DNA from: Actinomarinicola tropica
GTDB lineage: Bacteria > Actinomycetota > Acidimicrobiia > Acidimicrobiales > SKKL01
DNA: 64,000 nucleotides
Direction of reading: 5' to 3'
NCBI RefSeq assembly: GCF_009650215.1
Contig: NZ_CP045851.1
Span: 2,011,001-2,075,000 of the forward strand
This document shows, piece by piece, positions 51,165-57,553 of the stretch. Each line of letters opens with the position of its first letter. Position 1 is the first letter of the stretch. A model generated the notes under the pieces. It searched no databases, was not told the DNA's origin, and saw only the letters and a list, made by a program, of their open reading frames with translations. The position numbers were made by a program, and so were the translations under genes.

Positions 51165-52655
51165 CTACCCGAGACCGAGCTGGGCGGCGAGGCGGACCCG
51201 CTGGACCTTGCCGGTCGGGCCGAGCGGCAGCGCCTCGACCGGCACCACCGTCGACGGGACCTTCGCCCGGCTGAGGCGCTCGGCGGCGAAGCGACGCAGG
51301 TCCGAGGTCGAGACGTCCTGTCGGAGCACCACCGCGGCGGCGACGCACTCGCCGCGCAGGTCGTCGGGGGCGGCGAACGCCGCGACGTCGACGACCGCCG
51401 GGTGGTCGAGGAGCACGGCCTCGACCTCGAACGGCGAGACCTTCTCCCCCGCCACGTTGATGATCTCCTTGAGCCGTCCGACCAGCGTGAGGTAGCGGTC
51501 GGCGTCGAGGCGACCGACGTCGCCGGTCCGGAACCACCCGTCCACCCAGGCGTCGTCGTTCGCGCCGGGCGGCGCCAGGTACCCGGCCATGACCCCTGGT
51601 CCGCGGATGACCACCTCGCCCTCGGCCTCGGCGTCCTCCTGCACACGACCGTCGACGAGCACCGCCACCTGGGCGCCCGCCCCCGGCCCGACCGTCCCGA
51701 CCTTCCGCGCCGCGGGCGGCAGCGGGTTGCTCGTCATCTGGTGCGATGCCTCGGTCATGCCGTAGGCGTTGAGCACCGGGCACCCCAGCTGCTCCTCGAG
51801 CGTGCTCCAGACCGTGGCCGGGAGCGGAGCCGAGCTCGAGCGCACGAACCGCAGGCGGCCCGTCGGCGGCTCGGCGGATGCGCCGCTCCGCAGGAGCATC
51901 GCCTGGTACATGGTCGGCACCGCCGTCGACCACGTGATCGCAGAGTCGGCCAGCCGGCGCCGGTGGGCGAAGGCATCGAAGCCCGGGGTGCACTCGACGC
52001 TGCCCCCGCCCGCCACCGTGGACAGGAGCGCGCCGACGAGGCCGTGGATGTGGAACAGCGGCATCACGTTCAGGCACCGGTCGTCGGGCGTCAGCCGGAG
52101 CGTGGCGGCGATCGACCGAGCCGACGCCGCCAGGTTGGCGGAGGGTTGACCGATGAGCTTCGGCGCCGCCGTCGTCCCCGAGCTGTGGAGGAGGAGCGCG
52201 AGGTCGTCGCGCTCGCCGTCGCCACGCCGCGCCCGGTCGGGGGCCTCGGCGAGGTGCAGCTGGTCATCGGCGTCGATCTCGACGATGCCGAGACCGAGTG
52301 ACCGCGCGACCGCAGCGGCCCGACCGGGCGCGGAGGCGTCGTCGCCGGCGACGACGACGAGCACGTCGGCGTCGAGGCGCACCAGCGCGTCGCGCAGCTC
52401 GCCCTCCCTCGCGCGCGGATCGAGCGGTGCGCAGGTCGCGCCGGCCATCGCCGCCAGGCAGACGATCGCCAGCTGAGGGCCGTTGGGCAGCGCCACCGCC
52501 ACTCGTGGCCTCGGCCCGCGGTCCGCGGCGCGGAGCACGTCGTGGAGCCGGTCGACCATCCGGAGCACGTCGTCGGCGCCGCGCACGGTCTCGCCGTCGG
52601 TGACGAGCGGGGCTGCCCCCGGGCGCGCCGCCAGCAGGTCGATCACCGCGCTCAC
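51165..52655 (-). CDS. AMP-dependent acyl-CoA synthetase/ligase
   Basis: 496 residues, GTG start at 52655 in a GTGA overlap with the glycosyltransferase-LpxD fusion gene. An adenylate-forming enzyme with phosphate loop LLHSSGTTAAPKLIG, YGMTEASHQM, WFRTGDVGRLDADRY and the catalytic lysine in LPLGPTGKVQR. It resembles the oxalate-CoA/long-chain acyl ligase group, but the acyl specificity cannot be read. Its tight coupling with an acyltransferase fusion suggests it activates the acyl chain or an intermediate used by that protein. Confidence 0.88.
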   Translation of the reverse strand: MSAVIDLLAARPGAAPLVTDGETVRGADDVLRMVDRLHDVLRAADRGPRPRVAVALPNGPQLAIVCLAAMAGATCAPLDPRAREGELRDALVRLDADVLVVVAGDDASAPGRAAAVARSLGLGIVEIDADDQLHLAEAPDRARRGDGERDDLALLLHSSGTTAAPKLIGQPSANLAASARSIAATLRLTPDDRCLNVMPLFHIHGLVGALLSTVAGGGSVECTPGFDAFAHRRRLADSAITWSTAVPTMYQAMLLRSGASAEPPTGRLRFVRSSSAPLPATVWSTLEEQLGCPVLNAYGMTEASHQMTSNPLPPAARKVGTVGPGAGAQVAVLVDGRVQEDAEAEGEVVIRGPGVMAGYLAPPGANDDAWVDGWFRTGDVGRLDADRYLTLVGRLKEIINVAGEKVSPFEVEAVLLDHPAVVDVAAFAAPDDLRGECVAAAVVLRQDVSTSDLRRFAAERLSRAKVPSTVVPVEALPLGPTGKVQRVRLAAQLGLG

Positions 52656-54991
52656 CGCCGCACCTTGCGCATGGACGCCACGGCCCGTAGCGCCGCCGCG
52701 TGGCCCATCGCAGGGAGCCCGGTGACGTGGCCGCCGTCGGGGACCTCGCTGATCACGGTGGCGCCGAGGGACACGCGTGCCCCGTCCCCGATCCGGAGGT
52801 TGTTGGACACCGTGGCCCCCGGACCGAGCCAGGTGTCGCTGCCGACCTCCACGTTGCCGTTGACGACAGCGCCGTGACCGATGGTGGTGCGCTCGCCGAC
52901 GCGGCAGTCGTGGGAGACGAACGCGCCGTTGCCGATCCGGCCGTCCGCACCGATCGTCGTGTCGGTGCCGAACAGGCCGCGAGCGACGATGGCCCCGGGG
53001 AACACGACCGTCCGGGCGCCGACCGCGACGCCACCCGCGTGGGGCATCTCGACGCGGCGGCCGCCGTCGGTGATCGTCTGGAAGCCGGCCGAGCCGAGCA
53101 CCGCACCGGCCATCACCCGCACGTCGGCCTCGAGGCGGACCGGCCCCGAGAGCGTCACGTGCGGCCCGATCACGACGCCAGGACCGATCTCCACGTCGAT
53201 CTCGTCGATCACGGCGGAGGGGTGCACGTCGGCCGACGGATCGATCGTGCTCGGTTGGTGGTGCCGGTAGAGGTCCGTCCGCGTCGCCAGCGCCTCGTGC
53301 AGGCGGGCGAAGGTGCCGCGCGGCGTCTCCGAGGTGATGACGCCGATCGGCGCGGGGACCTGGTCGACCAGGGCCGGCGGGACGACCACCGCGGCCGCGG
53401 CACCCGATGCGAGCGCCCGGTCGAGGAAGACGGGGCTCTCCGCGAAGGTCAACATCCCCGCTGTGGGCGCGGTGGCGAAGCGCAACGTGGTGAAGACCGC
53501 GTCACGGACGACGTCGACCGGTTCGAGCAGGGCGAGGCGGGACAACGTCCACGTGGCGTCGCCCTCTCTCGGCGACTCGACGACGAGATCGAGGTCCGGT
53601 CCGTGTCGACCCGTGAGGTCCCGCAACCACGTCCGTCCCTCCTGCACCAGGTCGAGCGCCACCGTGCAGCGGCCGGGCTCGCCCGGGGCCTGCACGCGCA
53701 CGCGGAGGATGCGCTCGGCGCCTGGCGGCAACGGCGTCTCGAACCGGGTGCGCTCGCCTTCGATCCCCATCGGCCTGCCGTCGGCGTCGAGCAGGTGGTA
53801 CGAGGCGAACAACGGCGCGTCACCGAGGGAGTGCAGCGTCTCGGACGACCCGTTGCGGACCGCGAGCAGCACCGACGTCGTGGCGCCTGCCTCGACGAAC
53901 CCCGGTGTGGTGAGCGGACGGAGGGCGACCTGGTGGGCCGCGCCCGGCGACAGCGCCGAGCCGAGGAGGACCGCCCCGCTCCGTGCCACCGCTTCGAGCG
54001 CACCGGCCCGGGCGACCTGCTCGTCCAGGAGCCCGACCCAGGTGGTGCGGTGGCCGTCCGGGACGCCCTCGAGGCGAACCTCCTCGTAGAGCGCCTCGTA
54101 CGCGTCGAGGGCCCGCTCGAGGTCGGCGACCTGGCGGATCCACGCAGACGCACGGGCCGCGTCGCGCGGGTCGTAGCGGTCGATCTCCTCGCCGACGGTC
54201 GACGCGGTGACCGGGCGTTGGAGGCAGCGGGCGCCGAAGTTCCAGTCGCGGAGGTCCGCCACGTCGTCCGCGGTGACGATGGACGCCAGCCCCCCGGCGT
54301 CGGCCACGACGACGGCGCAGCCGACGGCGAGCGCCTCGAGCACGCAGCGCCCCTTCCCGACGACCAGGTCGTAGCGGCCGAGGATCTCCTCGGGACGGTC
54401 CACGGCGGTGCCGACGCCCGCGCCGATCACCTCGACGTCGAGGCCACGCGCCGCGCAGGCCGCCCGCACCTCCTCCACGTAGCCGCCGCGCACCGCGTAG
54501 TTCGAGAAGACGGCGACCCGGCGGGGACGACGTGGGAGCCGGTCGCGCGGGACGAAGCGACGCATGTCGACGGCGTTGTGGATCAGGCGCGTGAGCTCGG
54601 CGGGGATGCCGGCCTCGAGCCGGATGCGCTCGTCGCAGTTGCGGTCGACGCTGACGTAGCGCCGCACCGCCGGCGAGCGCAGCGGGGCGTCGTCTGGGTG
54701 GAGCCGGTCGTGGCAGACGTAGAGCGCGGGCGTGGTCGGGAACGCGGCGAGGGCCGTGGCGGTCTCGACCGTCTGGTGCCCGTGGATCACATCGGGCGTC
54801 CACGGCGTCGAGGCCACGTCGTCGACGACGATGGCACCGTCGGCGCGCATCTCCTCGGCCAGCGCACCGGGTCGCGGCGTGTAGACGCACACGTCGTGCC
54901 CCCTCCGCCGCAGTCCGGCGTCGAGGTCGCGGACGACGACCTCGGTGCCGGTCCGCTCGTCCAGCTGGAGGTTCGTGATGAGGATCTTCAT
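52652..54991 (-). CDS. GT4 glycosyltransferase - Ig-like domain - LpxD-like acyltransferase fusion
   Basis: 779 residues. Residues about 1-320: GT-B glycosyltransferase (LDERTGTEVVVRDL, VIHGHQTVETA, VGKGRCVLEALAVGCAVVVADAGGL). About 355-470: Ig-like domain with a conserved pattern seen after methyl/glycosyltransferases of surface polysaccharides (SYHLLDADGRPM, GERTRFETPLPPG, DLVQEGRTWL). About 480-779: LpxD-like protein, with a non-repeat N-lobe then a hexapeptide beta-helix. It includes GSAGFQTI and the catalytic-type His in GAFVSHDCRVG, which lines up with the IAHN histidine of LpxD. Proposed role: glycosylation and N- or O-acylation of one envelope molecule. There is no signal peptide, so it acts in the cytoplasm or at the membrane face. 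Confidence 0.85.
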   Translation of the reverse strand: MKILITNLQLDERTGTEVVVRDLDAGLRRRGHDVCVYTPRPGALAEEMRADGAIVVDDVASTPWTPDVIHGHQTVETATALAAFPTTPALYVCHDRLHPDDAPLRSPAVRRYVSVDRNCDERIRLEAGIPAELTRLIHNAVDMRRFVPRDRLPRRPRRVAVFSNYAVRGGYVEEVRAACAARGLDVEVIGAGVGTAVDRPEEILGRYDLVVGKGRCVLEALAVGCAVVVADAGGLASIVTADDVADLRDWNFGARCLQRPVTASTVGEEIDRYDPRDAARASAWIRQVADLERALDAYEALYEEVRLEGVPDGHRTTWVGLLDEQVARAGALEAVARSGAVLLGSALSPGAAHQVALRPLTTPGFVEAGATTSVLLAVRNGSSETLHSLGDAPLFASYHLLDADGRPMGIEGERTRFETPLPPGAERILRVRVQAPGEPGRCTVALDLVQEGRTWLRDLTGRHGPDLDLVVESPREGDATWTLSRLALLEPVDVVRDAVFTTLRFATAPTAGMLTFAESPVFLDRALASGAAAAVVVPPALVDQVPAPIGVITSETPRGTFARLHEALATRTDLYRHHQPSTIDPSADVHPSAVIDEIDVEIGPGVVIGPHVTLSGPVRLEADVRVMAGAVLGSAGFQTITDGGRRVEMPHAGGVAVGARTVVFPGAIVARGLFGTDTTIGADGRIGNGAFVSHDCRVGERTTIGHGAVVNGNVEVGSDTWLGPGATVSNNLRIGDGARVSLGATVISEVPDGGHVTGLPAMGHAAALRAVASMRKVRR

Positions 54992-55010
54992 CCGCGCTCG
55001 TCGACGAGGG

Positions 55011-55047
55011 CCGGGGGCCGACCCCCCGGTGGGCGGCGGTCATCGTA
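55011..55047 (-). promoter_or_regulatory. Putative promoter and leader hairpin of the fusion gene
   Basis: On the minus strand TACGAT (55042-55047) could be a -10 box, giving a leader of about 45 bases. The leader folds into a 7-bp CCGGGGG/CCCCCGG hairpin (arms 55023-55029 and 55011-55017, 5-base loop) about 20 bases before the ATG. The hairpin could also stop read-through from the thioesterase gene. No convincing ribosome-binding site precedes the ATG. Confidence 0.4.
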
Positions 55048-55077
55048 GGCCGCGGCCCCCGCGTCCGCGGACTGCCG

Positions 55078-55887
55078 TCAGCCCGTGGGCAGGCGCAGGG
55101 CGCAGATCTGTGTGGCCTGGACCACGAGGCGGTCCTCGCTGTCCCACACCTCGCAGATCTCGTCGGCGAAGCCGTCGTGGATGATCGTGGTGCGGAACCG
55201 GATGCGCAGCGGGCCGGGAGCGGGCACGGCGCGGACGTAGGTGGTGAGGTCGAGCGTCGGGACCCAGCCGGTCTGCACCACGGAGAACGTCGCAGGCGGC
55301 ATGGCGTCGCTGACGAAGAGCAGCTCGACCGGGGTGACGGCGCGGTCGCCGTCGAGCCGGAACCAGGCGCGCAGCTCGCCCGAGCCGTTGCCGCTCGGCC
55401 CGTCGGGGCCGATCTGCAGAGCGTGGTCCGGGTCGAACAGGAGCTGGGTGCCGTTGGCCGGCCGGTTGGCCATGCCGAAGCCGATGCACTCGTCGATCGG
55501 TGCCAGCGGCGGCGGCGGGTTCTCTCCCCAGAACGGCGCGCTGCCCTCGGTCAGGGCGCCGAGCGTGAAGCGGGCGCTCACCGCGACGCGGCCGGCCTGG
55601 GCGAGCCGGGCGGTGACCTGGCTGGCGGTGCGCCCGACCCGCTGGACGTCGGTCTCGATCTCGGCCGGCCCGAGGTCCGGGGACCAGAGGTACGAGGCAC
55701 CGGTGGAGATCGGGTGGGGGTGCTCGGCGCCCTGCTCGGCGGCGGCGGCGACGGCCGCCTTCCCGAGGCAGGCGAGCATGAACCCGCCGTTCGGCTTGCC
55801 GCCACCGATGGAGAACTCCTCGGGCAGCTCGACGCCGAAGCGTCCCTCGCCGAGGGGGGTCAGGGGCGTCGCCTGGGCCAGATCCAT
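55078..55887 (-). CDS. TesB-like acyl-CoA thioesterase
   Basis: 269 residues from the ATG at 55887. Double hot-dog fold; the segments GGKPNGGFMLACLGKA and VGRTASQVTARLAQAGR are typical of the actinobacterial TesB-like/thioesterase superfamily proteins, and SPFWGENPPPPL is a usual linker. It hydrolyses acyl-CoA to free acid. A TATCCT box 6 bases before the ATG indicates a leaderless start. It sits on the same strand upstream of the GT-LpxD fusion and the acyl ligase, so the three may act on one acyl pool. Confidence 0.85.
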   Translation of the reverse strand: MDLAQATPLTPLGEGRFGVELPEEFSIGGGKPNGGFMLACLGKAAVAAAAEQGAEHPHPISTGASYLWSPDLGPAEIETDVQRVGRTASQVTARLAQAGRVAVSARFTLGALTEGSAPFWGENPPPPLAPIDECIGFGMANRPANGTQLLFDPDHALQIGPDGPSGNGSGELRAWFRLDGDRAVTPVELLFVSDAMPPATFSVVQTGWVPTLDLTTYVRAVPAPGPLRIRFRTTIIHDGFADEICEVWDSEDRLVVQATQICALRLPTG

Positions 55888-55930: not shown

Positions 55931-57553
55931 TCAGTCGAGCGGCACGTGCCAGGTCTCCACTCCATCGGCGTGGCCGAACCGGACCTCGACCGCACCGAGT
56001 TCGTCCAGGCTGGTCCCCTCCACGAGGAGCAGGAAGAGGTTGGGCTCCGCTCCGGTCATCGCGGTCCCCGACGTCGGGATGACGGAGCCGTCGTGGCGGA
56101 CCAGCTCGGCGCCGTTGAACCCCGGCGGGACCGCCCCGTACACCGCGAGGTACCGCCCGTCGGTCACGACGCCCCACTCCGGACCGCCGAGGGACGAGAG
56201 CGGGATCGAGCTCGCTGCGCCACGAGCAGCACCCTGGATCTCTCCTTCGAGCTCCAGCCCTTCAGGGCCGCGGCGGCGGACGACGACCCGTGCGGCGACG
56301 TCGGAGAGGACGATCGAGGTGCCACCGACGAGGTCCGGGTCGAGCTGCGCCTCCTCCGCCCACCGGTCGGTGAGCTCCTGGTCACCCACCGGCCCGCTCG
56401 GATCTCCGATCTCCTCCGCGCGTTCGTCGGCCTGCCCGCCAGGATGCGTCGCCACCAGCTCCTCCCACTCCGCCTCGCCCACCTCGACCAGCTGCTCGAT
56501 CCGCTGGAGCACGGCCTCGAGGCCAGCGTCGTCGACGACGCGTGCTCCCACCCGGACGAGGGTGTCCCCGCCCTCCATCCACGACACCTCGACGAGGCCC
56601 CCGTCGTACCGGGCGATCACCGCGTCGACGCCACGGACGGCCGAGGACTCGACGTCGGTCGCGTAGGCATGGGCCGCTCGCCAGCGCTCCGGGCCGCCCG
56701 GCGCGGTCGTGACGGAGATGGCGTCGCCGGTCGGGCTCGCCACGCCGTCCCCCTCGCCGTGGAGGTAGGCGATCGTCGTCGTGTCCGACGGGAGGTCGTC
56801 CGCCATCAGGCCGAGGGTCGGCACGACGTCGCCCAGCCCGCCGTCGAAGAGCACGTCGTGGCCGGGAAGGGGGTCGTCGGCTCCGGCCTCCTGCGCGACG
56901 GCCGTCCGGACGAGCTGCACGAGGTCGTCGGCGTCGCCCCAGGACAGCAGCTGGCGCTCGGTGCCCCCCTCTCGCCAGATCACCGACGCGCCGCCGGCGG
57001 ACTCCTCCGTGAGCACCGCCTCCGGCCCGCCGACGTCGATCGGCGAGCCGCCGTCCAGGTCGGACTGCTCGGGCAGGTCCGGATCGGTGCCCGCGGGGAT
57101 CGCCACGTCGCTGACGACCTCCACCAGAACGTCCGGCCACGGGGCGCTCGCCCCGGCGGGCACGTGGACCCGCACCGCCAGCGACGGCAGGACCGGAGCC
57201 GGGCCCTGGTCGGGGGCCTCGACGCCTCCGTCGACGGCCACGACGCGGTCGTAGGTCTCGGCCACCTCCGGCGGCAGGACGAGGTGGCGGTGGCCGCCGG
57301 TCGTGGCGACCGGTGTCTCCTGGCCGCCGTCGTCGGCCACCAGCACCGCAGCGACCAGGGCCAGGGCGAGGACGACCGCAGCGGCCGCGACCCACCCGGC
57401 GGCTCCTCGACCCCGGCCGCGCGGCGCGGAGGCCACGGGTTCCCGCTGCAGCGACACCGGCAGCGGCGGCACCTCCACGGCGTCCACCCGCCGGTCGAGC
57501 TCGGCCACAGCCGACGCGAACCGGCGGTCGAGCTCCAGCGTCGACTCGCTCAT
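55931..57553 (-). CDS. Single-span membrane partner of ECF sigma factor (putative anti-sigma)
   Basis: 540 residues, ATG at 57553 in an ATGA overlap with the sigma stop. About 50 cytoplasmic residues (a helical DRRFASAVAELDRRVDAV segment) precede one membrane helix at about 53-73. A large extracytoplasmic region of about 460 acidic residues follows, with repeated mixed beta domains and no lipobox. The position and topology match anti-sigma factors that hold the sigma factor until an outside signal arrives. The N-terminus lacks a zinc-binding HxxxCxxC motif. The big outer part resembles no family I can name. Confidence 0.8.
   Translation of the reverse strand: MSESTLELDRRFASAVAELDRRVDAVEVPPLPVSLQREPVASAPRGRGRGAAGWVAAAAVVLALALVAAVLVADDGGQETPVATTGGHRHLVLPPEVAETYDRVVAVDGGVEAPDQGPAPVLPSLAVRVHVPAGASAPWPDVLVEVVSDVAIPAGTDPDLPEQSDLDGGSPIDVGGPEAVLTEESAGGASVIWREGGTERQLLSWGDADDLVQLVRTAVAQEAGADDPLPGHDVLFDGGLGDVVPTLGLMADDLPSDTTTIAYLHGEGDGVASPTGDAISVTTAPGGPERWRAAHAYATDVESSAVRGVDAVIARYDGGLVEVSWMEGGDTLVRVGARVVDDAGLEAVLQRIEQLVEVGEAEWEELVATHPGGQADERAEEIGDPSGPVGDQELTDRWAEEAQLDPDLVGGTSIVLSDVAARVVVRRRGPEGLELEGEIQGAARGAASSIPLSSLGGPEWGVVTDGRYLAVYGAVPPGFNGAELVRHDGSVIPTSGTAMTGAEPNLFLLLVEGTSLDELGAVEVRFGHADGVETWHVPLD

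Follow-up and report, generated by a model that had tools for sequence, protein, structure and literature searches.

We propose that two overlapping genes on the reverse strand of the window (the whole stretch of 64,000 nucleotides that was analysed) form a two-gene unit that makes an N-acylated amino sugar and places it in the cell envelope, a reading to which we assign a probability of about one half. One gene encodes a glycosyltransferase fused to an LpxD-like acyltransferase and the other an AMP-forming ligase. The sequences themselves show the domain order of the fusion, its conserved histidine, the way in which the two genes are paired and overlap and, in one relative, coupling to a dehydrogenase-like gene; the identity of the acyl group, the sugar, the acceptor and the order of the two reactions are inferred. 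The ligase would convert a carboxylic acid to its CoA thioester; a small polar acid (one that resembles oxalate, or a different dicarboxylic or hydroxy acid) is likelier here than a fatty acid with a long chain. Using His694, the LpxD-type half would attach this acyl group to a UDP-linked amino sugar at its free amine, the sugar being bound by the LpxD-like N-terminal domain. This would most likely be a 3-amino sugar, the product of an NDP-sugar 3-dehydrogenase acting with a DegT aminotransferase. The fused GT4 half would pass the N-acylated sugar on to an acceptor, either lipid-linked or polymeric, in whose binding the Ig-like domain may assist. Among the points that count against the two-gene model, one of the fusions found has no adjacent ligase, and conservation of the uracil pocket is partial. 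A preliminary description of this region had suggested that an acyl chain is attached to a sugar which the same protein transfers, giving an envelope glycolipid or an acylated capsule, with a thioesterase as a further participant. Of this picture, the fusion, the histidine, the ligase pairing, LpxD as the nearest solved family and the lack of LpxC in the carriers are supported; the thioesterase and the lipid or glycolipid part are not.

The fusion gene (52652..54991, reverse strand, as are all features given below) is a single open reading frame of 779 amino acids, and the earlier assignment of GT4, Ig-like and LpxD-like domains to one protein of this length is borne out by Pfam and NCBIfam matches and by three homologous fusions. 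It begins with a GT4-type glycosyltransferase domain (residues 1 to about 335; 53987..54991; Pfam PF13439), followed by an Ig-like beta-sandwich region (residues about 336-485; 53537..53986) recognized from strands in the structure model and a homologous stretch in loci L012 and L013, the N-terminal, uridine-pocket domain of LpxD (residues about 495-575; 53267..53509; PF04613 at 510-566) and a left-handed beta-helix acyltransferase domain (residues about 580-761; 52709..53254) with Hexapep repeats, for which LpxD was best in PDB comparisons. Pfam cut-offs were passed by Glyco_transf_4 (41.9 bits), the LpxD N-terminal domain (32.4 bits against a cut-off of 30.8) and Hexapep (57.6 bits), and the top NCBIfam matches were LpxD models at 115-126 bits, under the model cut-offs. 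The end of the fusion gene, including its stop codon, shares four bases (GTGA, 52652..52655) with the start of an AAE3-like acyl-CoA ligase of 496 amino acids (51165..52655; PF00501 and PF13193), the overlapping acyl-activating enzyme that had been noted previously.

Three more fusions with the same domain order and 43-46% identity were found in other genomes; the fusion is thus genuine and is neither a chance arrangement nor a frame accident. Two of them, at L062 and L063, span both halves and came from a scan of named genomes; their source genomes are titled Actinomycetes and Actinomycetota MAGs, and the L062 copy is truncated N-terminally by the contig end. The fourth fusion, in genome G796, came from a search around the genome of L063. 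A single-protein search of about 850 genomes of the order, class and phylum of the window recovered no further fusion, so it appears to be rare, and our search of the open-access literature returned no description of a glycosyltransferase-LpxD fusion. A homologue of the glycosyltransferase is directly followed by a hexapeptide protein at L056:7127-9160, possibly an unfused form of the same pairing.

Directly downstream of the L062 and L063 fusions lie ligases with 54% and 50% identity to that of the window, with the same kind of stop/start overlap (ATGA). The same AMP-forming ligase therefore stands behind the fusion with a four-base overlap in three of the four carriers, a sign that translation of the two genes may be coupled, and the association with an acyl-activating enzyme that the preliminary description had reported is conserved to that extent. 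In a tree the three fusion-linked ligases grouped together (91/95, just short of the starred level of support), with those of the window and L062 paired and that of L063 outside. For the LpxD half, the window and L062 copies are likewise closest by identity and by path length, on a tree in which the forks within the fusion clade lack resolution. The agreement between the ligase and fusion branching orders fits a co-inherited pair. No ligase gene was found near the G796 fusion within its 18 kb piece. A ligase match elsewhere in G796 was considered as an orthologue and rejected, as it is 85% identical to the ligase of genome G789 and falls in that clade; the ligase-like genes of G796 and G789 each adjoin a ketopantoate-reductase-like gene.

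LpxD provided the nearest solved chains to the acyl half in a PDB sequence comparison, and a profile built from three of the fusions matched Acinetobacter baumannii LpxD at 1e-22, with the N-terminal domain included in the alignment. His694 (codon at 52910..52912), the SHDC histidine to which the preliminary description had drawn attention, aligns with the catalytic histidine column of the Escherichia coli (IAHN), A. baumannii and Chlamydia trachomatis enzymes, and both it and a GFQT motif are invariant in all four fusions. One possibility is that the beta-helix is a non-catalytic trimerization scaffold for the glycosyltransferase, since purely structural left-handed beta-helix domains exist; no result of this analysis points to it. 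We consider this extremely unlikely: the histidine-bearing block IGNGAFVSH is unchanged in three copies and almost unchanged in the remaining one at an overall identity of about 45%, and the fusion is coupled to a gene for acyl activation. The domain itself probably folds as a left-handed beta-helix and forms trimers.

By fold the LpxD half belongs to the LpxD family, but it lies outside the lipid A equivalog, as the fusion misses the equivalog and subfamily cut-offs of LpxD (115.1 against 242.5 bits and 125.6 against 207 bits). The structure models are of low confidence (mean pLDDT 58.6 and 52.9) and were used as support only. Structural comparison of such a model placed LpxD first (Z 16.0 over 220 residues, rmsd 12.1 A) and the acetyltransferase domain of PglB next (4m99, Z 12.0), and the active-site histidine is present; a PglD-like or storage-type fold lacking it, which had been named earlier as the competing outcome, was not what was found. 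At E below 0.001, Foldseek with a low-confidence model returned no LpxD. In a tree the four LpxD halves formed one clade (96/99) apart from both Gram-negative LpxD and NeuD/PglD-like proteins. LpxC was searched for in the four fusion genomes, three of them MAGs or of unknown completeness, and was absent, while control genomes were positive. This matches the earlier remark that no other lipid A gene is visible, and it makes a role of the fusion in lipid A synthesis very unlikely.

Another explanation is that the LpxD half acts as a PglD/PglB-like N-acetyltransferase using acetyl-CoA, the ligase serving some other purpose. NeuD/PglD-like NCBIfam models do match this half, the PglB domain is its second structural neighbour, PglB is itself a fusion of a glycosyltransferase and an acetyltransferase, and the G796 copy stands without a linked ligase. 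However, the ligase is coupled to and co-inherited with the fusion in the other three cases, the N-terminal domain of LpxD is present and a WbpD-like acetyltransferase is already encoded by the host, so that we regard simple acetylation as unlikely and favour transfer of the acyl group that the ligase activates.

The preliminary description had included the two-domain TesB-like thioesterase upstream of the fusion (55078-55887, identified by family matches) as a pathway member. The gene is present as described, but it is excluded from the unit by synteny with a congener, G001, in which the order is sigma factor, the counterpart of the gene at 55931, TesB (72% identity), an HD-GYP-like gene, OxyR, AhpF, AhpC and OtsA. 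The window keeps this order with the fusion and ligase in place of the HD-GYP-like gene. TesB thus occupies the syntenic position in a congener whose locus lacks both the fusion and the ligase, which makes it shared background, and it does not adjoin the other fusions. Either the fusion and ligase pair was gained separately from TesB, or it was replaced by the HD-GYP-like gene in the congener. That gene, at L129:10075-11490, lies between TesB and OxyR at the site held by the fusion and ligase in the window.

The ligase is a full AMP-binding enzyme including the C-terminal domain. Its nearest solved relatives are oxalate-CoA ligases (8e-90 for 5ie0, then 3e-85 and 4e-80), followed by FadD13 at 9e-51. 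As the ligase is nearer to oxalate-CoA than to fatty acyl ligases, its acyl group is more probably small and polar than fatty. In AAE3, Ser289 and His319 presumably bind oxalate, although a literature search found no paper on the oxalate-site residues of this enzyme. Their equivalents, S275 and H305, are kept in all three fusion-linked ligases and both are absent from an ordinary ligase of the window genome. The pair is, however, common to the whole AAE3-like clade, including paralogues in catabolic-looking clusters, the linked ligases have Y250 and N296 where the plant enzymes have His and Glu, and they fall outside the plant and yeast oxalate-CoA ligases in the tree. A small polar acid is therefore a fair inference for the substrate, to be preferred over a long-chain fatty acid, and oxalate itself a guess.

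It has also to be considered that the ligase activates a long-chain fatty acyl group which the LpxD half puts on a sugar, giving an envelope glycolipid or an acylated capsule. LpxD, to which this half is related, transfers 3-hydroxy fatty acyl groups, and among NCBIfam models the ligase matches FadD7 'fatty acid-CoA ligase' best, though its 361.6 bits fall far short of the cut-off of 650. Against this, the solved relatives place the ligase among oxalate-CoA ligases and the thioesterase lies outside the unit, and a fatty acyl product is in our view improbable; the grouping of the ligase gives no support to the glycolipid suggested previously. Two ligase relatives are of separate note: the gene at L062:1732-3336 encodes a run of 11 serines before the AMP-binding motif (LLLHTSGTT), and a frame of 1841 residues at L120:3908-9433 has an AAE3-like adenylating domain at its start.

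Clues to the sugar come from amino-sugar genes. At L063 three successive genes, for a Gfo/Idh dehydrogenase, the fusion and the ligase, each overlap the next (TGATG, ATGA), with a DegT aminotransferase gene adjoining. The best models for this dehydrogenase were inositol 2-dehydrogenase and UDP-GlcNAc 3-dehydrogenase, both below cut-off, and the best model for the Gfo/Idh protein of the window genome was UDP-GlcNAc 3-dehydrogenase. Genes of these kinds also adjoin standalone LpxD-like proteins at L054 and L055. All four fusion genomes have a DegT orthologue (E below 1e-100), as do 5 of 75 others; when split by relatedness this co-occurrence had a chance of about 0.035 and 0.023 and is partly confounded by kinship. 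A WbpD-like acetyltransferase gene lies beside DegT in all five DegT genomes without the fusion and in one of the four with it (p about 0.05), the co-occurrence tests resting on small counts and on comparisons chosen after the data had been seen. In the window genome the DegT, Gfo/Idh and WbpD-like genes lie about 0.63 Mb from the fusion. The host's own WbpD-like gene weakens the idea that the LpxD half is its only 3-N-acyltransferase, and given this remote set of genes the LpxD half may use another amine in the window genome.

Two further loci bear on LpxD-like proteins more generally. At L091:7544-9161, and also at L057, a PIG-L deacetylase is immediately followed by a standalone LpxD of near-canonical type (245.7 bits against PRK00892, cut-off 207), and the two may be a lipid-A-free pair that deacetylates and then reacylates. 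The surrounding cluster is exopolysaccharide-like and includes DegT, WbpD-like and UDP-sugar dehydrogenase-like genes. At L055:2037-6086 the Gfo/Idh, LpxD-like and DegT genes adjoin a flagellin gene, possibly indicating a route of flagellin glycosylation.

The glycosyltransferase half is 38-48% identical to standalone glycosyltransferases, and a fold search returned GT-B folds such as PimA, MshA and PglA. The second glutamate of the GT4 EX7E motif (E219) is kept and the first is absent, as in the standalone homologues. The region between the halves is a beta-sandwich of about 110 residues in a low-confidence model, and its sequence recurs C-terminal to two methyltransferases (L012 and L013) that we take, on sequence inspection, to be FkbM-like. 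Glycan enzymes of these bacteria may therefore use it as a general accessory domain, and a role in binding the acceptor is possible. The acyl group could alternatively be added after transfer, as O- or N-acylation of a polymer held by the Ig-like region, instead of to the nucleotide sugar. Of the positions equivalent to F43, N46 and Y49, which we take to form the uracil-binding pocket of LpxD, the first is aromatic in all four fusions and the other two are N/S/T and F/V, and this partial conservation would suit such an order of events. We nevertheless judge acylation after transfer to be very improbable, as the fold and N-terminal domain are those of an enzyme acting on UDP-sugars and, at L063, the unit is coupled to a nucleotide-sugar dehydrogenase-like gene. 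Acylation of the nucleotide sugar before transfer remains our preferred order.

If the proposal is right, LpxD chemistry has been reused outside lipid A, in genomes that lack LpxC, probably with a short polar acyl group and with acyltransferase and glycosyltransferase in one polypeptide; the fusion and ligase would then offer a pair of genes with which synthesis of an undescribed envelope sugar could be tested. A more specific version, that oxalate or some comparable dicarboxylic acid is activated and that an LpxD recruited from lipid A synthesis and fused to a glycosyltransferase attaches it to the amine of a 3-amino UDP-sugar, giving an acidic N-oxalyl-type envelope sugar by an actinobacterial route, is speculative and we hold it to be rather doubtful. 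Literature on GnnA with LpxD and on N-oxalyl polysaccharides yielded nothing direct.

The closest known systems each share part of this arrangement. LpxD (UDP-3-O-acylglucosamine N-acyltransferase) has the same N-terminal domain, left-handed beta-helix and catalytic histidine, whereas the fusion carries GT4 and Ig-like domains in front, scores below the LpxD equivalog cut-off and is coupled to an acyl-CoA ligase gene, not to lipid A genes, in a genome without LpxC. Neisseria PglB, a phosphoglycosyltransferase fused to a PglD-like acetyltransferase, likewise combines a sugar transferase and an N-acyltransferase in one chain, but the fusion has a GT4/GT-B transferase half, an LpxD-like acyl half and its own acyl-activating enzyme. 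The oxalate-CoA ligases (Arabidopsis AAE3, Lathyrus OCS and yeast Pcs60) share 38-43% identity and the Ser289/His319 equivalents with the window ligase, which differs in having Y250/N296 for the plant His/Glu and in sitting in a glycan unit. Finally, the WbpB/WbpE/WbpD route leads to 2,3-diamino sugars, and GnnA and GnnB serve lipid A with GlcN3N; comparable 3-dehydrogenase-like and aminotransferase genes are linked to the fusion at L063 and lie elsewhere in the window genome, but at L063 the place of the acetyltransferase is taken by a glycosyltransferase-fused LpxD domain and a ligase.
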